A stretch of 64,000 nucleotides of DNA from Halorubrum alkaliphilum (lineage in GTDB: Archaea > Halobacteriota > Halobacteria > Halobacteriales > Haloferacaceae): assembly GCF_017873815.1 (NCBI RefSeq), contig NZ_JAGGKQ010000002.1:62001-126000 (forward strand), read 5' to 3'. Below, piece by piece: positions 29,466-37,586 of this stretch (positions within the stretch are counted from its first letter, which is position 1; each line of letters begins with the position of its first letter). The position numbers and the translations under genes were made by a program. The notes beneath the pieces were generated by a model. The model made no database searches. It saw only the letters and a program-made list of their open reading frames with translations, and was not told where the DNA came from.

Positions 29466-31994
29466 TCACTCTTGGGGGAGCAGCGCTCGCGAGGAGTTCG
29501 TCACGACGAGCAGACTGGAGATCCCCATCGCGACCGCGGCAAAGAGCGGGTTGAGCAGTCCGGTCACGGCGAGCGGGATGGCGATTGCGTTGTAACAGAA
29601 CGCCCATGCGATGTTCCCTTTTACCCGCCGGCCGGCCGCCCGCGAGAGGTCGAAGACGGTCCGGACCGAGTCGAGGTCGTCGTCGACGATGGCCACGTCC
29701 GCGGCGTCGGCCGCCATCGCGGTTCCCCCGCCGAGCGCGACGCCCAGATCCGCGGCCGCGAGCGCCGGGGCGTCGTTGGTGCCGTCGCCGACCATCACGG
29801 TCCGCCCGCGCCCTTTTAATCGTTCGACGGTCTCCGCCTTCCCCTCCGGCGGTACGCCCGCGAACACTCGGGACACCGCGGGATGGTCGGCGAAGACGGT
29901 CGAGGCGCGCTCGTCGTCGCCGGTCAGGACGACCACCTCGACGCCGGAGTCCGCGAGCGACGAGAGCGTTCCCTCCCATCCGTCGCGCAACTCGTCGCCG
30001 ACCACGACGAGTCCCTCGGCCGCCCCGTCCCGTCCAAGCGCGACCGGAACGCGTCCCACGTCGCGTGCGGCGGCGACGGACTCCCGGAGACGATCCGGCA
30101 CCGTCCACCCGCGCTCGTCGAACAGGCCGGGATGGCCGACGATCACCTCGACGCCGTCGACGACGCCAGCGACGCCGCGGGCGTGGCTCTCGAAGGAGTC
30201 GACCGTGGGGGCCGGTTGCGCGTCGGTCCCGGTTCGGTCGGTTGTCGCGGTGTCGCCGTCGCCCGCCGTGACGGTTCCGCCGTCCGCCGCGACGGGGCGG
30301 GAGCCGTCGTTTTCGGCGGCCGCCGTCGCGATGGCCCGTCCCACGGGGTGGGCGGACTTGGATTCGAGCGCGGACGCGAGCCCCAGCAGGTCGTCGTCGA
30401 CGTCGCGGTCGAGGAGGCGCATCTCGCCGGTCGTCAACGTTCCGGTCTTGTCGAAGACGACGGTATCGGCGTCGCGAATCCGCTCGAAGACGGTGTCGTC
30501 GAAGACGACGATCGCGCGTTCGAGCGCGTCCCGGATCCCGGCGGCGACCGCGAGCGGGGTCGCGAGCCCCAGCGCGCACGGACACGAGACGATGAGCACC
30601 GTGAGCGCGACCAGCATCGCGGTCGCGACCCCGTTCCCGAGCGCGAGGTTGCCCGCCGCGACGACGACCGCGACCGTCAACACGAGCGGGACGAACACCG
30701 TCGCGAGCCGGTCCGCGAGCTTCTGGACGCCGTGGTTCCCGCTCTGGAGGTCCCAGACCATCTCGGCGACGCGATCGAGGCTGGAGGTCGCGTCCGGGCC
30801 GACCGATATCGTCAGCGAGCCGTCGGCCACGACGGAACCGCCGACGACGGCGTCGCCCGGCTCCTTGCGGACCGGGAGCGACTCCCCGGTGACGACGGAC
30901 TCGTCGACCGCGGCGTCGCCGTCGACCGCCTCGCCGTCGACCGGGACGCGCTCTCCCGCGCGCACGAGCAGTCGGTCACCCGAGTCGAGCGCGTCGATGT
31001 CGACGCTCTCGGTCCCATCGCCGGTCATCCGGCGGGCAGTATCGACTTGGACGGCCGTGAGATCGGAGAGGAGCTCCGTCGCCCGGCGTTTGATGGCGGT
31101 CTCGTAGTGGGTGCCGACGGTGACGATCACGATGATGGCGATCGTCACGTCGTAGTAGATCGAGGGATCATCGAGCAGCGCGACCGCCAGCGTGCTGTAG
31201 AGGTACGCGCTGACGGCGGCGATGGCGACGAGCAGGTCCATGTTCGGCGACCGCGTCCGCGCGCTCACGTACGCGCCCCTGAGGATCGGCTTGCCGGTGA
31301 CCGCCAGCACGATCGTCGTCAAAACCCCGATGACGATGAAAAAGTACGTTCCGGACGTCGACGCCATCGCCTCGTTGATGAACTCCAGCGTTCGCTCGTC
31401 ATAAAAGGGGAACGCGAAGTAGGTCGGATAGATGAGCACGATGTACTGTAACATGACGGCCATCCCGACGAGCACGCCGACCGCGAGCCGTGCGGTCGCC
31501 ATGTTGTCCGCCTGCCGCCGCGAGAAGGCGTCGTCGCGGGAGTATGCGCTGTAGCCGAGCCCGCTCACCGCTTCCGCGAGGTCGTCCGTCGAGACGGCAC
31601 CGGGGTCGTGGTCGATCCGGACCGTGTCGGTGACGTAGCTGGCGCTCGCGGCGCTGACTCCCTCCGTTCGCGTCGCGACCGTCTCGATGAACGCCTCGCA
31701 GGTCGCACAGTGCATGCCGTCGACTTCGAGAAACGTCGCCTCGTGGTCGGCGGGGATCTCGGGGGCGTCGTCGGTCCCATCGGCGTCGGTGGAGTCGGCG
31801 CTGCCGTCGCCCGCGTTCGACCCGTCCCGCCGCTCGGCAACCGTCTCGGCGTCCACGTCGACGTCGCCGAGCGCATCGTAGACGCCACGACAGCCGGTAC
31901 AGCAGAACTGGTTTCCCTCGTCGTCGACGACGTCGACGCCCTCCGTCGGGAGGTCACACAGCGTACAGTCGGGAAACGGTCGATCGTCGGTCAT
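29466..31994 (-). CDS. copper-translocating P-type ATPase (CPC type) with N-terminal cysteine cluster
   Basis: An 842-residue P1B ATPase. The first 40 residues hold a C-rich zinc/copper-binding cluster (C10, C13, C31, C32, C35), then an HMA domain with DGMHCATCEAF near residue 94, eight membrane segments, the metal-translocation motif CPCALGLATP, the phosphorylation motif DKTGTLT, and the GDGTNDAPAL hinge. The combination of an N-terminal Cys cluster with HMA and CPC, next to a SafE/TauE-like gene, is the arrangement of CcoI/FixI, which supplies copper to terminal oxidases. Simple copper export (CopA) is the alternative. It is the last gene of a minus-strand operon, two bases after the SafE-like stop. 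Confidence 0.9.
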   Translation of the reverse strand: MTDDRPFPDCTLCDLPTEGVDVVDDEGNQFCCTGCRGVYDALGDVDVDAETVAERRDGSNAGDGSADSTDADGTDDAPEIPADHEATFLEVDGMHCATCEAFIETVATRTEGVSAASASYVTDTVRIDHDPGAVSTDDLAEAVSGLGYSAYSRDDAFSRRQADNMATARLAVGVLVGMAVMLQYIVLIYPTYFAFPFYDERTLEFINEAMASTSGTYFFIVIGVLTTIVLAVTGKPILRGAYVSARTRSPNMDLLVAIAAVSAYLYSTLAVALLDDPSIYYDVTIAIIVIVTVGTHYETAIKRRATELLSDLTAVQVDTARRMTGDGTESVDIDALDSGDRLLVRAGERVPVDGEAVDGDAAVDESVVTGESLPVRKEPGDAVVGGSVVADGSLTISVGPDATSSLDRVAEMVWDLQSGNHGVQKLADRLATVFVPLVLTVAVVVAAGNLALGNGVATAMLVALTVLIVSCPCALGLATPLAVAAGIRDALERAIVVFDDTVFERIRDADTVVFDKTGTLTTGEMRLLDRDVDDDLLGLASALESKSAHPVGRAIATAAAENDGSRPVAADGGTVTAGDGDTATTDRTGTDAQPAPTVDSFESHARGVAGVVDGVEVIVGHPGLFDERGWTVPDRLRESVAAARDVGRVPVALGRDGAAEGLVVVGDELRDGWEGTLSSLADSGVEVVVLTGDDERASTVFADHPAVSRVFAGVPPEGKAETVERLKGRGRTVMVGDGTNDAPALAAADLGVALGGGTAMAADAADVAIVDDDLDSVRTVFDLSRAAGRRVKGNIAWAFCYNAIAIPLAVTGLLNPLFAAVAMGISSLLVVTNSSRALLPQE

Positions 31995-31996
31995 GG

Positions 31997-32932
31997 TTAG
32001 TGGCCTCCGTGGTCGCCGTGGCTTCCGTGATCGCCGTGGCCGCCCGCGACCTCGTGTCCCACGAGTTCGCCCGCGTCAAGCGGGTTCCAGAACGGTAGCT
32101 CGGGGTGGGGAAGATGAATGCCGACCGCCATCAGCCCGTGCGCGAACAGGACGTAGCCGAGGACGACGAACGCGACGCCGAGCAGCCGGTGGACCCGCCG
32201 GCGATGGACGGCATCGACGCGCTCGATCAGGGTACCATAGAGGAACACGGCGGGCATCGTTCCGACGCCGAGCGCCGCGAGCGCGATCCCGCCGCTGACG
32301 GCGGAGCCGCTCGCGAACGCGTACAGGTACGCCGGGTAGAGGATCGGACATGGGAGCAGTCCGTGGACGGCCCCGAGCCCGACGATCCCCGGACCGTTCG
32401 CGAGCCGGTCGACGTGACCGGTCAGCCAGCCGGTGATCCGCTGAAGTCCGGGGAGGTGGACGCCGCCCGTCGCGCCGCCGAGGACGTACCGGATCCCGAC
32501 GAGGATCACCGCCGCGCCGACGCCGAGTCCGACGACTCCGCGGACCGTCCCTGCCGCGCCCGTGAGCGTTGCTGCCCCGACGAGGACGACCCCGCCGATC
32601 GCGCCGAGCAGCGCACCGATGAGCGTGTAGCTCGCGGTCCGTCCGAGATTGAAGAGGGCGTGTTGGCGAACCTCGTAGGTGGTGAGGTGGCCACTCCGTC
32701 GACGGTCGGTCGAGTCGGTTCCGGCTGCCGCGCCCGTCCCCCCGTCGGTTCGACTCCCGGCCGTCGACCCGCTCCCGCCCGTATCTGTTACGCCGCCGTT
32801 CATCCGCGCGGAGTACGCGGTCACGAGCGGGCCGCACATCCCGATACAGTGGGCACCGCCGAGCAGCCCGATGGCGAGAAACAGGAGGACGTCCGTTCCG
32901 AGCAGGAGTGAGGGGTCCATCGCGTGGTTCAC
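31997..32932 (-). CDS. SafE/TauE-like (CcoH/UreH-type) membrane protein
   Basis: A 311-residue polytopic protein starting MNHAMDPSLLLGTDVLLFLA. GLLGGAHCIGMCGPLVTAYSARM (about 18-41) is the GxxHCxGMCG motif of the sulfite-exporter/CcoH-like family, whose Cys and Met residues are thought to handle copper. A Gly/Ser/Thr/Asp-rich cytoplasmic loop follows, then further helices with PCPILYPAYLYAFASG. The C-terminal 25 residues are His-rich (HGDHGSHGDHGGH), consistent with metal binding. It precedes the copper ATPase by two bases and probably acts with it in delivering copper to respiratory oxidases. Confidence 0.85.
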   Translation of the reverse strand: MNHAMDPSLLLGTDVLLFLAIGLLGGAHCIGMCGPLVTAYSARMNGGVTDTGGSGSTAGSRTDGGTGAAAGTDSTDRRRSGHLTTYEVRQHALFNLGRTASYTLIGALLGAIGGVVLVGAATLTGAAGTVRGVVGLGVGAAVILVGIRYVLGGATGGVHLPGLQRITGWLTGHVDRLANGPGIVGLGAVHGLLPCPILYPAYLYAFASGSAVSGGIALAALGVGTMPAVFLYGTLIERVDAVHRRRVHRLLGVAFVVLGYVLFAHGLMAVGIHLPHPELPFWNPLDAGELVGHEVAGGHGDHGSHGDHGGH

Positions 32933-33014
32933 CTCGGTTTGGGGGCGAGCGCGCTAATGGGTTTCGTCGTCGGTCGTTCGGATACGGACGGGACGCGGGC
33001 GGGACGCCGACGTC

Positions 33015-33488
33015 TCATCGGTCACGCAGTTCCCTGACGGTCAGCACGGAGAGCACGGCGAGAAGCGCGGCCTCCACGACCTTCGAGGCGAACGCGAGCG
33101 AGTCGTCCTGGAGGTGAACGACGACCAAGCGTATCGGTCCCAACTCCGAGTGACCGCCGTGTGCGGGGCGACCGGGCCAGAACGCGCCGTGATCGAGGAC
33201 GGTGTGCCACGCCGCGTAGCCGACGAGGAAAACGAGCATCAACAGGATCCCGCCGACGTAAACGGGAAGCGGGTCGAACCCCTGTACGACGAGCAGCACG
33301 CCCATGAGCATCGCCATCGTCGCGAGAAGAAACGCCGCTGGCCGAGGGTCGTGGAGGATCCCGAACCGGAGCTGATCGACGGCGACCGGCAGCGCCCAGT
33401 AGAGGTGGATCCCGGCGACGGCCGCCGCAAGAACGCCGGCGAGACGGCGGAGCATGCGGTCGGACGACGGCGAGGTCTCGACGCCCAT
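33015..33488 (-). CDS. four-helix membrane protein of the copper cluster
   Basis: A 157-residue protein with four hydrophobic segments (about residues 12-32, 48-65, 73-93 and 133-150). A His-rich stretch (HTVLDHGAFWPGRPAHGGH) sits between helices 3 and 4. I recognise no named family beyond uncharacterised haloarchaeal membrane proteins. It begins one base after the halocyanin stop, so the two are one transcript, and lies 82 bases before the SafE-like gene. The His-rich loop and the neighbours suggest a role in copper or respiratory chain assembly, by context only. Confidence 0.75.
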   Translation of the reverse strand: MGVETSPSSDRMLRRLAGVLAAAVAGIHLYWALPVAVDQLRFGILHDPRPAAFLLATMAMLMGVLLVVQGFDPLPVYVGGILLMLVFLVGYAAWHTVLDHGAFWPGRPAHGGHSELGPIRLVVVHLQDDSLAFASKVVEAALLAVLSVLTVRELRDR

Positions 33489-33489
33489 C

Positions 33490-33978
33490 TCACGGCTCCT
33501 CCACGATCACGGTCGCGTACATCCCGCCGAACTCGTGGGGAATACAGACGTAGTCGTACCGTCCCGGAACATCGAAAGTGTGGCTGAACTGCTCTCCGTT
33601 CCGGAGGTCTCCGCCGAAATCGTCGTGCCACTCGTCGCGTGCGGTCTCCTCGTCGTCGAACCCGCCGGAAGCGAAGTACTCGGCGTCCTCCGGGATGCCG
33701 CCTTCGTAGGCCGTGACGGTGTGGATCCGCGTACTGGTGTTCTCCCAGACGACGGTGTCCCCGACCGTCACGGTGAGATCGTCCGGGACGTAGCCGTCAG
33801 CAGTCATTCCGACGTCGTAGCCGTCGTCCTCCCCGTCTCCGTCTGTCGCGTTCGCGTCGCCGCCTCCACCGCCGGTGATCGCGCCGTCCCACTCGTCGAC
33901 ACATCCGGACAGTGCGATGGCGCTCCCGATCCCCACGCCGGCGAGTCCGGCGCGCTCGAGGAAGCGTCTCCGATACAT
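33490..33978 (-). CDS. halocyanin lipoprotein
   Basis: A 162-residue blue copper protein. A short Tat signal (MYRRRFLERAG) and hydrophobic core end in the lipobox ALSGC, so it should be exported folded and lipid-anchored. After a Gly/Asp linker, the cupredoxin domain has the copper ligands H (STRIHTVTAY, about residue 85), C, H and M in YVCIPHEFGGM near the C-terminus. It carries electrons at the outer membrane face. It is the first gene of the block with the four-helix protein, the SafE-like protein and the copper ATPase. Its start codon lies in a near-perfect palindrome. Confidence 0.9.
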   Translation of the reverse strand: MYRRRFLERAGLAGVGIGSAIALSGCVDEWDGAITGGGGGDANATDGDGEDDGYDVGMTADGYVPDDLTVTVGDTVVWENTSTRIHTVTAYEGGIPEDAEYFASGGFDDEETARDEWHDDFGGDLRNGEQFSHTFDVPGRYDYVCIPHEFGGMYATVIVEEP

Positions 33979-34044: not shown

Positions 34045-34800
34045 TCAGCCGTCGTGACCGATCGCATCGGTGCCACCGTCGACAACGACGCCGATCATCC
34101 GTCGTTGGGCCGCCGCGAGGTGTTCGGCGAACGTCGACCGGGCGATCCCCACGGCCTCCGCCACCTCCTCGGCGCTCGCCTCGCGCGGATACGAGAAGTA
34201 GCCGAGCCGCCACGCCGCACACAACACCTCGCGCTGTCGGTCAGTTAACCGTCTCCGGTCGACCACGACGGGGTCCGCCCGCTCGTGGTCGCCGGAGTGA
34301 GTGAGGCGGTCGAGCGTGACGGTCGCACCCGTCGACTCAACGGCGTCGACGATGCCCCCGAGCGGCTCGACGGTGGGCAAATGAACGGTGACACGGAGTC
34401 GATCCGGATTCGTCCGAACCGTCGCGTCGGCCACCGGGTAGCCGAGCGACTCGATCGTGCGATACGGACACGCGTCCCGCGGCTCGACTTGGCGTCGATA
34501 CACGCGAGCGCCGTCGACCTCAAAAACCGGAGCGGCCGGGGCGGAACCGTCGGACGGGATCGGACCCTCGACTCGGAACTGCTCGATCGTGACGTCATCG
34601 AGCGTGATCGCTCGAACGTCCGTCGCGACCGTCCCGTCCGGCAGGGCGTCGACCACCGGACACTCCGGAGGGTCATGGGCGACGAGGCGCGCGCGAACGC
34701 CATCGCCGGAGGTGCCGTACCCCGGGTCCCGTACGTTCGAGGCGGGAGCGCCGCTGGAGCGACTGGGAACCGAGCGAACCGGATCGGGTGACTCTGGCAT
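34045..34800 (-). CDS. HTH-10 (Bat-type) transcriptional regulator
   Basis: A 251-residue protein. The C-terminal 55 residues (LTDRQREVLCAAWRLGYFSYPREASAEEVAEAVGIARSTFAEHL, given in part: LTDRQREVLCAAWRLGYF and IARSTFAEHL) are the HTH-10 DNA-binding domain found at the end of Bat and its many haloarchaeal relatives; the N-terminal half is the variable sensor-like region without PAS or GAF motifs. Bat activates bacterio-opsin genes in Halobacterium, and this gene is divergent from the carotenoid/halorhodopsin pair, so regulating them is plausible. I start at 34800 because a TATA-like box at 34871-34878 overlaps the only other start (34872). Confidence 0.75.
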   Translation of the reverse strand: MPESPDPVRSVPSRSSGAPASNVRDPGYGTSGDGVRARLVAHDPPECPVVDALPDGTVATDVRAITLDDVTIEQFRVEGPIPSDGSAPAAPVFEVDGARVYRRQVEPRDACPYRTIESLGYPVADATVRTNPDRLRVTVHLPTVEPLGGIVDAVESTGATVTLDRLTHSGDHERADPVVVDRRRLTDRQREVLCAAWRLGYFSYPREASAEEVAEAVGIARSTFAEHLAAAQRRMIGVVVDGGTDAIGHDG

Positions 34801-34869
34801 GTGTTCTCCCCCGTATCCCACGAGTAAATCGGCGGGGCCTGACAGGTACGCCCCAAGCCGCTTCGACGA

Positions 34870-34880
34870 CATATAAAAGC
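34870..34880. promoter_or_regulatory. TATA-like box in the regulator/crtI divergent gap
   Basis: ATATAAAAG at 34871-34879 lies 53 bases before the CrtI-like ATG and about 70 bases before the regulator ATG, and reads TTTTATAT on the other strand. It could serve either or both genes. Confidence 0.5.
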
Positions 34881-34931
34881 CCGTCGCATGACGGCGATGA
34901 TTCTCGGCGATGGACGATCACGTGTCACACG

Positions 34932-36458
34932 ATGAGCGATCGCTCTCTCGACGGGACCTCAGTCGGGATCGTCGGCGGCGGGATCGGCGGGCTCGCCGCG
35001 GCGGCGTATCTTGCCGACGACGGCGCGGCAGTGACGCTGTACGAGCGTTCGGACCGGGTCGGCGGCGTCGCCGGCCGGATCGAACGGGACGGATTTCGGT
35101 TCGACACCGGTCCCTCGTGGTACCTCATGCCGGAGGTGTTCGAGCGGTTCTTCGGTCACTTCGGTCACGAGCCCGCGGAGTTCTACGAGCTGGAGCGGCT
35201 CGACCCGCATTACCGCGTGTTCTGGGACGACGGCGACCGTGTGGACGTACCAGCCGATCCTGAGGCCGCCGCACGGCTGTTCGAGTCGTACGAGGACGGC
35301 GGTGCGGAGGCGTTCCGTCGATACCTCGCGGACGCCGAAGCCGCATACGAAGCCGGAATGGAGCAGGTCGTCCTCCCAGGGCGGTCGCGCCTTCGTGACT
35401 ACCTCTCGACCGACGTTCTCCGTGCCGGCCGTGAACTGGCCCTGCTCGACAGTCTCGACGAGCGGGTGAGCGAGTACGTCGACCACCCGAAGCTCCGGCA
35501 GCTGCTCCAGTACACCCTCGTGTTCCTCGGCGGGTCCCCGCACGACACGCCGGCGATGTACCAGTTGATGAGCCACGTCGACTACGGCCTCGGCGTGTAC
35601 TACCCGATCGGCGGGATGTACGAAGTCGTTGAGGCGGTCGAGGCGGTGGCACGCGAGCGCGGCGCGGACGTCCACACGAACGTCGAAGTTACCGGCCTCG
35701 ACCCCGTCTCGGGCGGCGTCGCGGTCGACCTCGGCGGCGACCGATACGTCCACGACCGGGTCGTCTGTAACGTCCCCCCGGAGTACGTGGAACGAGAACT
35801 GCTGCCCGCGGGGAGCGTCCCGCGACTCGGCAACTACTGGGACCGTCGTACGTACGGGCCCTCGGCGTACCTGTTATACCTCGGCGTCGAGGGACGGGTA
35901 GACGAGTTGGCACACCACACGCTCGCGTTACCGACCGACTGGGATCCCCACTTCGAGGCCATCTTCGAGGACCCCCGGTGGCCGGAGGAGCCGACGGTGT
36001 ACGTCAACGTTCCCTCGCGAACCGATCCGTCTGTCGCGCCGTCGAGCCACGAGAGCGTCGTGATCCTCGTTCCGTTGGCTCCGGGGCTCGACGACGCTCC
36101 GGAGCGACGAGAACGGTTCCGCGAGACGGTACTGGAGACGGTGGCGTCGTACACGGGCGTCGACCTCGCGGACCGGATCGTCGTCGAGGAGTCGGCGTGT
36201 GTCTCCGAGTTTGCGCGCCGGTTCAACCGTCCCGGCGGAAGCGCGCTCGGACTCGCACACACGCTCACACAGACGGGCCCCCTCCGTCCGGGTCCCCGAG
36301 TTCGAGGGGTCGACCGGCTCTACCACGTCGGCGGCGGGACGAACCCGGGGATCGGCGTGCCGATGTGTCTGCTGAGCGGCGAACACTGTGCGGACGCGGT
36401 CGCCGAGGACGTCTCGATCGGGGGGTTCGATCGACTCTCCTTCCTCGCTCGCGAGTGA
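34932..36458 (+). CDS. CrtI-like carotenoid desaturase family FAD oxidoreductase
   Basis: A 508-residue flavoprotein. SVGIVGGGIGGLAAAAYLADDGAAVTLYE opens the FAD-binding Rossmann fold, followed by GGVAGRIERDGFRFDTGPSWYLMPEVF, the typical phytoene desaturase N-terminus. The C-terminal HVGGGTNPGIGVPMCLLSGEHCAD is the family's second FAD motif. Enzymes of this family desaturate phytoene or later carotenoids on the way to lycopene, bacterioruberin or retinal. Haloarchaea carry several CrtI/CrtD paralogs, so the exact step is open. It precedes the halorhodopsin gene, which needs retinal, by 151 bases. The ATG at 34932 gives the usual short N-terminus. Confidence 0.85.
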   Translation: MSDRSLDGTSVGIVGGGIGGLAAAAYLADDGAAVTLYERSDRVGGVAGRIERDGFRFDTGPSWYLMPEVFERFFGHFGHEPAEFYELERLDPHYRVFWDDGDRVDVPADPEAAARLFESYEDGGAEAFRRYLADAEAAYEAGMEQVVLPGRSRLRDYLSTDVLRAGRELALLDSLDERVSEYVDHPKLRQLLQYTLVFLGGSPHDTPAMYQLMSHVDYGLGVYYPIGGMYEVVEAVEAVARERGADVHTNVEVTGLDPVSGGVAVDLGGDRYVHDRVVCNVPPEYVERELLPAGSVPRLGNYWDRRTYGPSAYLLYLGVEGRVDELAHHTLALPTDWDPHFEAIFEDPRWPEEPTVYVNVPSRTDPSVAPSSHESVVILVPLAPGLDDAPERRERFRETVLETVASYTGVDLADRIVVEESACVSEFARRFNRPGGSALGLAHTLTQTGPLRPGPRVRGVDRLYHVGGGTNPGIGVPMCLLSGEHCADAVAEDVSIGGFDRLSFLARE

Positions 36459-36467
36459 AGCAGAAGT

Positions 36468-36584
36468 GTGGTATACCACCACAAGACATTTTACGTCGTG
36501 GTACCGGAGATGGACACGTACCACCCCTCCTGTAGGGCCGGTTCCACCGCGATCCATACTCGTTAGGTTGATAGATTTAATCAA
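36468..36584 (+). promoter_or_regulatory. halorhodopsin upstream region with palindromes and TATA element
   Basis: Three elements are visible. GTGGTATACCAC at 36468-36479 is a perfect 12-base palindrome, and variants of its half-site recur (CGTGGTACC at about 36497, CGTACCACC at about 36517). TTGAT-n7-ATCAA at 36568-36584 encloses ATTTAATC, a probable TATA box about 30 bases before the ATG. CTCGTTAGGT just upstream resembles, from memory, the sequence near the bop start in Halobacterium. These fit light/oxygen-controlled expression by an HTH-10 regulator. Confidence 0.55.
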
Positions 36585-36609
36585 AGTAGAACCAACCCGT
36601 AGGTGTCGC

Positions 36610-37500
36610 ATGATAGAAACAGCAGCAGCCGACCTAGCGGTAGCAGCACAGGGAGTCCCCCTGGAGGTAACCCAGACCGATATCTGGAACTACCTCCAAA
36701 GCGATGAGGGGATGTTACTGAACCTCTCGTTGTGGGTCAACATCGCCTTGGCAGGGCTCTCGATCCTCCTCTTCGTGTTCATGGGGCGGAACGTGGAGGA
36801 CCCGCGCGCACAGCTGATCTTCGTCGCGACGCTCATGGTCCCGCTGGTATCCATCTCCAGCTACACCGGACTCGCGTCCGGACTCACGATGAGCGTCCTC
36901 GAGATGCCAGCAGGACACGCGGCAGCCGGCTCGACGACGCCGATTGCCGGCGGCACGGACGGCGTCCTCACGATGTGGGGCCGTTACCTCACGTGGGCGC
37001 TCTCGACGCCGATGATTCTGCTCGCGCTCGGTCTGCTCGCGGGCTCGAACATCACGAAGATCTTCACGGCTATCGTGGCTGACATCGGGATGTGTGTCAC
37101 CGGTCTCGCGGCCGCGCTGACCACGTCCTCTCACGCGCTCCGCTGGTTCTGGTACTTCATCAGCTGCGCGTTCTTCCTCGTCGTGCTGTACGTGCTCCTC
37201 GTCGAGTGGGCAGCCGACGCCGAAGTCGCTGGAACCTCGGAGATCTTCAACACGCTGAAGATCCTCACCGTCGTGATGTGGCTCGGCTACCCGATCTTCT
37301 GGGCGCTCGGTGCTGAGGGGATCGCGGTGCTCGATGTCGCGATCACGTCCTGGGCCTACAGTGGCCTCGACATCGTCGCGAAGTACATCTTCGCGTTCCT
37401 CCTGCTCCGCTGGGTCGTCGACAACGAGTCCACGATCGCGGGCATGGCGTCCGGGCTCGGCTCCGCCAGCGGCGGCGGCGCGGCTCCGGCCGACGACTGA
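36610..37500 (+). CDS. hop: halorhodopsin, light-driven chloride pump
   Basis: A 296-residue seven-helix rhodopsin. Retinal binds K258 in LDIVAKYIF, with D254 as part of the counterion. R125 and T128 (RYLTWALSTP) mark the chloride site: Thr replaces the proton acceptor Asp85 of bacteriorhodopsin and Ala139 replaces the donor Asp96, so this is an inward chloride pump and not a proton pump. MWGRYLTWALSTPMILLALG and the CVTGLAAALTTSSH stretch match halorhodopsin of Halobacterium as I remember it. The N-terminal residues before helix A are short. The start at 36610 follows the TATA box by about 30 bases. It sits behind a CrtI-like gene, with a terminator hairpin after it. Confidence 0.96.
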   Translation: MIETAAADLAVAAQGVPLEVTQTDIWNYLQSDEGMLLNLSLWVNIALAGLSILLFVFMGRNVEDPRAQLIFVATLMVPLVSISSYTGLASGLTMSVLEMPAGHAAAGSTTPIAGGTDGVLTMWGRYLTWALSTPMILLALGLLAGSNITKIFTAIVADIGMCVTGLAAALTTSSHALRWFWYFISCAFFLVVLYVLLVEWAADAEVAGTSEIFNTLKILTVVMWLGYPIFWALGAEGIAVLDVAITSWAYSGLDIVAKYIFAFLLLRWVVDNESTIAGMASGLGSASGGGAAPADD

Positions 37501-37550
37501 CGACGTAGCGTCGCGGTATCACCGTTCGGGCGGTTTCACGGTGTCGTTCT

Positions 37551-37586
37551 CCCGCGGACCGACGTGGGGTGTCCGCGGGCCTTTTT
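37551..37586 (+). terminator. hairpin terminator after halorhodopsin
   Basis: A perfect eight-base stem (CCCGCGGA / TCCGCGGG) with a 13-base loop is followed by CCTTTTTG, about 50 bases after the hop stop codon. Confidence 0.6.

Follow-up and report, generated by a model that had tools for sequence, protein, structure and literature searches.

Which protein switches on a halorhodopsin gene that has a carotenoid desaturase gene and a small regulator gene as its neighbours? The question is raised by a locus of Halorubrum alkaliphilum (contig NZ_JAGGKQ010000002.1), located in a stretch of 64,000 nucleotides here called the window, whose coordinates are used throughout. The locus consists of a CrtI-family desaturase gene (crtI), the halorhodopsin gene hop and a gene for a regulator with DmsR_N and HTH_10 domains, termed REG; all three genes are real. 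Their identities, their conserved linkage and the conserved boxes in the hop and REG promoters are matters of observation. The locus is interpreted, with a probability of roughly 0.55, as a retinal-protein module composed of hop, a CrtI of the retinal branch and the local regulator REG, in which a Bat-family HTH_10 protein would switch hop and REG through a common promoter box.

Genes of the locus

34045..34800, minus strand: REG, stand-alone DmsR_N and HTH_10 regulator, 251 amino acids; ATG conserved in relatives, open reading frame back to 34872
34932..36458, plus strand: CrtI-family carotenoid desaturase, 508 amino acids, assigned by profiles, linkage and tree
36610..37500, plus strand: hop, halorhodopsin, 296 amino acids, assigned by the Bac_rhodopsin profile and solved relatives

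The original prediction, made from the letters alone, had placed an HTH_10 regulator, a CrtI-like gene and a halorhodopsin at these positions, and Pfam and TIGR profiles as well as solved relatives agree with it. The divergent layout that it described also holds, with REG on the minus strand and both crtI and hop on the plus strand.

The hop product scored 183 bits with the Pfam profile Bac_rhodopsin, and its best solved relative is the halorhodopsin 3a7k (E 1.4e-119); the next three matches are also halorhodopsins, with bacteriorhodopsins appearing at E 1e-26. By these matches the protein is a true halorhodopsin, predicted to act as a light-driven chloride pump. No bop gene was found in this genome, the two rhodopsin genes detected being hop and one that adjoins a gene for a methyl-accepting transducer (locus L139, 4452-6709), presumably encoding sensory rhodopsin II.

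REG matched DmsR_N with 71 bits and, at its C-terminus, HTH_10 with 66 bits, and contains nothing else known to Pfam. It thus shares the C-terminal HTH_10 domain with Bat, and, as originally noted, lacks the PAS and GAF parts, neither of which gave a Pfam match. REG appears to be a small local regulator, consisting of what in a Bat-like protein is the C-terminal half. The same two domains make up the DmsR-type regulators; unlike these, REG is linked to crtI, hop or brp, and no dms operon adjoins it in the loci read, targets elsewhere in the genomes lying outside this comparison. The fold of REG was predicted with a mean pLDDT (predicted local distance difference test) of 83. In the structure comparison, its N-terminal part was closest to Ta1207 (5m86; Z 8.8 over 131 residues), followed by many ferredoxin/ACT-like rows with Z below 7; no ligand could be read from this predicted fold, and a profile search of REG against solved structures gave no match below E 0.35. 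A redox switch through conserved cysteines was considered and rejected, the cysteines not being kept across orthologues.

Conservation of the gene set

The comparison within the genus covered 52 genomes, that of the window and 51 others. The hop gene is present in 44 of them (identity 73% or more), a REG orthologue in 24 (E at most 4.6e-54, the next best match being at 4.5e-38) and this CrtI also in 24 (67-80% identity, with one gene in two pieces), besides a remnant in one further genome. REG and CrtI occur together in 23 genomes, the two mismatches being G032, with REG and pieces of CrtI, and G010, in which CrtI is cut by the contig start. The order REG, divergent CrtI (or its remnant), hop was found in every REG locus fetched from the genus (23 besides the window), and neither REG nor this CrtI occurs in any of the eight genomes without hop; the probability of this by chance, calculated by hand, is about 0.003 if genomes are taken as independent, which they are not. 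The REG-CrtI-hop set is conserved by linkage in the genus. There are also 19 genomes with hop and without the REG/CrtI pair; in most of them the gene immediately upstream, on the left, is the same one, coding for a copper protein. On the hop tree, REG status changes about eight times, indicating that the pair was lost or gained repeatedly. In G032 (locus L117) decay seems to be in progress, as REG is intact and the CrtI fragments match residues 272-322 and 418-482.

Among 392 genomes of the order, REG was found at E 1e-40 or better in 24, of which 16 belong to the genus and eight do not. The eight outside loci all have CrtI nearby (cut by the locus edge in L190), seven have Brp/Blh, four hop and three Bat. 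The gene order is hop, crtI, REG, brp, bat in loci L175 and L176, and crtI, REG, brp, bat in L177, where hop is not within the 10 kb fetched. This CrtI, at E 1e-205, is present in 29 genomes, 16 of the genus and 13 outside it, three of the latter being L175-L177; in all ten remaining loci, which have no REG, CrtI is located directly behind brp on the same strand. The Brp/Blh profiles TIGR03753 and PF15461 confirmed two outside loci and the copies at bop loci, the rest being identified by tblastn.

A bop-type box at the hop and REG promoters

34838..34851, minus strand: UAS-like box of the REG promoter, GCGTACCTGTCAGG, 51 bases 5' of the REG ATG (UAS, upstream activator sequence)
34871..34879, plus strand: TATA-like element of crtI, ATATAAAAG; ATAAA kept in an alignment of 24 divergent regions
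34880..34904, plus strand: conserved block CCCGTCG..., a putative operator seen in the alignment of 24 loci
36554..36567, plus strand: bop-type UAS box of hop, CCATACTCGTTAGG, 56 bases 5' of the hop ATG
36576..36581, plus strand: TATA-like element of hop, TTTAAT, from the alignment of crtI-hop intergenic regions

The aligned crtI-hop intergenic regions have a single feature in common, a dyad followed by TTTAAT just 5' of hop, which in the window reads ATCCATACTCGTTAGGTT...TTTAAT. The pattern CCNNACNNGTNNGG was scored at one mismatch or less and its expectation taken from shuffles; a bacterial chance match (L063) was left out of all hop counts, and second copies of genomes, with identical upstream sequence, were removed from the promoter counts. 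The box lies 54-59 bases 5' of the hop ATG in all 27 distinct promoters of REG/CrtI loci, every one exact, where 0.4 would be expected even with one mismatch. It is also present in 19 of 19 hop promoters of the genus without REG (18 exact, 0.5 expected) and in 28 of 49 other hop promoters (23 exact, 1.1 expected). Judged by the shuffles, conservation of the hop box is far above chance.

In relatives the box also precedes bop, equally far from the gene, at 16 of 20 loci with one mismatch or less. The bop-type UAS has the form of a dyad ACC..AC..GT..GG just 5' of TATA, and hop has this form, with CCATACTCGTTAGG, eight bases and TTTAAT. The Halobacterium UAS is taken here to be ACCcnactagTTnGG, and the identity of the hop box rests on this consensus together with the test on bop promoters. 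An early guess that CTCGTTAGGT (36559-36568) resembles the bop promoter is supported, these bases being part of the conserved element.

The divergent region between REG and crtI contains a conserved CCGAACGAGTACG, which on the REG strand is the same box as that of hop. The REG open reading frame extends over 34045-34872 (minus strand), and the ATG was chosen among the candidates as that with the best box, being set by hand for the window; with the box at -51/-52 of a conserved ATG, the start, most likely at 34800, was therefore moved there, giving 251 amino acids. At this distance CCNNACNNGTNNGG is found in 25 of 25 REG genes with one mismatch or less (two exact), compared with 1.7 expected anywhere in 120 bases. 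Having the same box, hop and REG thus have twin promoters. Each is a promoter of its own with the dyad CCNNACNNGTNNGG a few bases 5' of TATA and some 50-57 bases before the start codon, a layout which is that of the bop upstream activator sequence. A genome-wide scan with CCNNACNNGTNAGGT gave three matches, at hop and at two genes not obviously connected with light; looser scans were limited by too few fixed bases.

Role of the CrtI desaturase

The desaturase scored 435 bits with TIGR02734 (cut-off 238), placing it in the CrtI family. Retinal is formed from phytoene through lycopene and beta-carotene, the last step being catalyzed by Brp/Blh. Because the loci of this CrtI go together with brp/blh, and in view of this pathway, the enzyme is probably a phytoene desaturase of the retinal branch, most likely making lycopene for it.

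In a tree of 55 CrtI sequences (L030 and L190 were dropped, for a stop and as a fragment), a single clade with support 100/99 contains 35 rows, namely 24 hop-linked, three hop/REG/brp-linked and eight of the ten brp-linked ones; the genome's two remaining CrtI fall outside it. Two brp-linked and four REG-linked rows are exceptions that group with other CrtI copies; the CrtI partners of REG and of brp are thus not all of one lineage. The other CrtI copies were compared at 14 loci, of which 13 have no brp alongside and one (L207) does; the tree does not place the L207 CrtI with its supposed type. In the genus loci L199, L203 and L205, another CrtI copy has as its neighbour a gene whose C-terminal half resembles that of Bat (38-42% identity), so that more than one crtI has an HTH_10 gene beside it.

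It seems improbable that this CrtI works for bacterioruberin instead, whether as a duplicate or to provide an antenna carotenoid bound to halorhodopsin, with the brp linkage being secondary. Such a role would agree with its 626.8 bits in NF058655, the model of the bifunctional phytoene/3,4-desaturase CrtID, a score near the cut-off of 640 and below it. It would also agree with the binding of bacterioruberin by a related haloarchaeal proton pump, cruxrhodopsin-3, reported in PMC4182453. Against it, two further CrtI are encoded in the genome, one of them among UbiA-type and carotenoid-synthesis genes, a cluster suited to bacterioruberin; moreover, brp accompanies the clade of this CrtI and is missing at 13 loci of the two further types. 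Two brp/hop-linked relatives in the same clade, the CrtI of L178 and L176, pass NF058655 (scores 660.9 and 656.5), and annotation pipelines may thus give retinal-branch enzymes the name of the bacterioruberin enzyme. Assignment to the retinal branch would offer a functional lead for one of several CrtI copies that such pipelines name alike.

Which protein reads the box

A full Bat, with response regulator, PAS, GAF, BAT and HTH_10 domains, is encoded on another contig of the genome, divergent from brp, and a one-mismatch box is located between these bat and brp genes. This Bat would be the likeliest binder of the box. Since hop keeps the box in the absence of REG, it is probably a Bat-type activator that binds it, and Bat is given the edge over REG. 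By binding the box, a Bat-family HTH_10 protein would turn on hop and REG together, and REG might then adjust the expression of itself and of the divergent crtI, which would couple supply of the retinal precursor to production of the pump. The original prediction had suggested a different control circuit; the regulator does stand alone, as it proposed, whereas the full Bat beside brp in the same genome and the hop box kept without REG speak against a separate circuit.

It is possible, with the odds well against it, that REG itself activates hop and its own gene, having replaced Bat at the UAS box of these clusters. The common box of the hop and REG promoters would be explained in this way, and a narrower form of it, CCNTACNNGTNAGG, is present at 25 of 26 loci that have REG or CrtI and at 8 of 20 that lack REG (second copies of genomes left out). 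With about eight REG changes on the hop tree, a model in which box form depends on REG status was better (likelihood ratio 7.2, p 0.027), for a feature chosen after seeing the data; a test on independent pairs was not significant, and such pairs cannot reach significance here. A takeover is also at odds with the 19 of 19 genus loci that keep the hop box without REG, and REG and Bat have different residues at several positions of the recognition helix.

Equally doubtful is a division in which hop is controlled through the box by Bat only and REG regulates only crtI, perhaps as a repressor at the block 34880-34904. The joint gain and loss of REG and CrtI, independent of hop, would agree with this, as would the conserved bases between the crtI TATA and its start. 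The box in the promoter of REG itself is left unexplained, and REG is connected with the block by neither structure nor motif.

Several points weigh against switching of the module by a Bat-family protein. Binding of the box by Bat or REG, and the switching itself, are deduced from sequence. No box within one mismatch was found in 21 of the 49 more distant hop promoters, nor at 4 of 20 bop genes, most bat genes and most brp genes. The distance from the REG box to the crtI TATA is 20 bases in the window and about 27 in most relatives, a variation that leaves a direct role of the box at crtI unproved. The CrtI score barely below the NF058655 cut-off also gives some weight to bacterioruberin.

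A wider view, slightly less likely even than the two alternatives above, is that hop-crtI-REG(-brp-bat) might constitute an exchangeable, self-contained cassette, in which a sensor-less relative of Bat would be the dedicated switch of pump and chromophore supply, using an old bop-type box also read by Bat. Switching by a Bat-family protein offers a testable split of tasks between the sensing Bat and its stand-alone relative.

The palindrome upstream of hop

36468..36524, plus strand: palindrome GTGGTATACCAC and two extra half-sites, found at this place in this genome only

The original prediction had proposed a 12-base palindrome and its half-sites between crtI and hop as a possible binding site of the regulator. 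The palindrome is present (36468-36479), with a single copy in the window, and it is one of 46 perfect 12-base palindromes there, as such no more than chance. As an operator of REG it is highly improbable. In its favor, the half-sites GTGGTA/TACCAC form an unusual cluster (36468, 36474, 36498 and 36519), with 4 of the 13 copies in the 64 kb falling within 57 bases, a number reached in none of 20000 mononucleotide shuffles of the crtI-hop intergenic stretch. Yet GTGGTATACCAC occurs only once in the whole genome and not at the REG promoter. At none of the other hop loci with REG/CrtI, 28 in number and including two from second copies of counted genomes, do the 300 bases upstream of hop hold a match with fewer than three mismatches. 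Two other genomes of the genus carry it away from hop. It was rejected as a conserved operator, being single in the genome and absent at every other hop locus compared, and appears to be a local oddity with no general role in the switch. The half-site cluster at 36468-36524, improbable by shuffling and absent from the relatives, may be a site, specific to this lineage, for some factor. An RNA hairpin at the palindrome was also rejected, its fold being no better than those of shuffles (z -1.09).

Relation to known systems

According to published work, the genes bop, brp, bat and crtB1 have a common UAS and are Bat-dependent (PMC1885257, PMC1447603, PMC2253796, PMC3184054), Bat acting through these elements (PMC1885257, PMC1447603). 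The locus resembles this Halobacterium salinarum regulon in its equally spaced box before a rhodopsin gene and in the presence of an HTH_10 regulator and a retinal-pathway gene. It differs in that the rhodopsin is a chloride pump, in a genome with no bop, that the pathway gene is crtI rather than crtB1 or brp, and that the local regulator lacks PAS and GAF. In Natronomonas pharaonis, hop is likewise linked to genes for its own biogenesis, and the same report describes no hop linkage pattern in the other haloarchaeal genomes then known (Sharma et al., 2007, PMC1885257), whereas such linkage is recurrent in the present comparison. No description of a hop-crtI-HTH_10 cluster was found in the literature searched, from which subscription papers were mostly absent, and no priority is claimed. 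The parts are known and the arrangement, a conserved module for a retinal protein under a switch of the bop type, would be new. If this is true, the only archaeal light regulon studied well so far extends from a proton pump to a chloride pump, with gene order and a common promoter element tying pump-making to retinal-making across several haloarchaeal families.

Neighbouring genes

On the strand of REG, positions 29466-33978 of the window encode a heavy-metal P-type ATPase, a DsbD_2-type membrane protein and a plastocyanin-like protein. This block adjoins hop in members of the genus both with and without REG.

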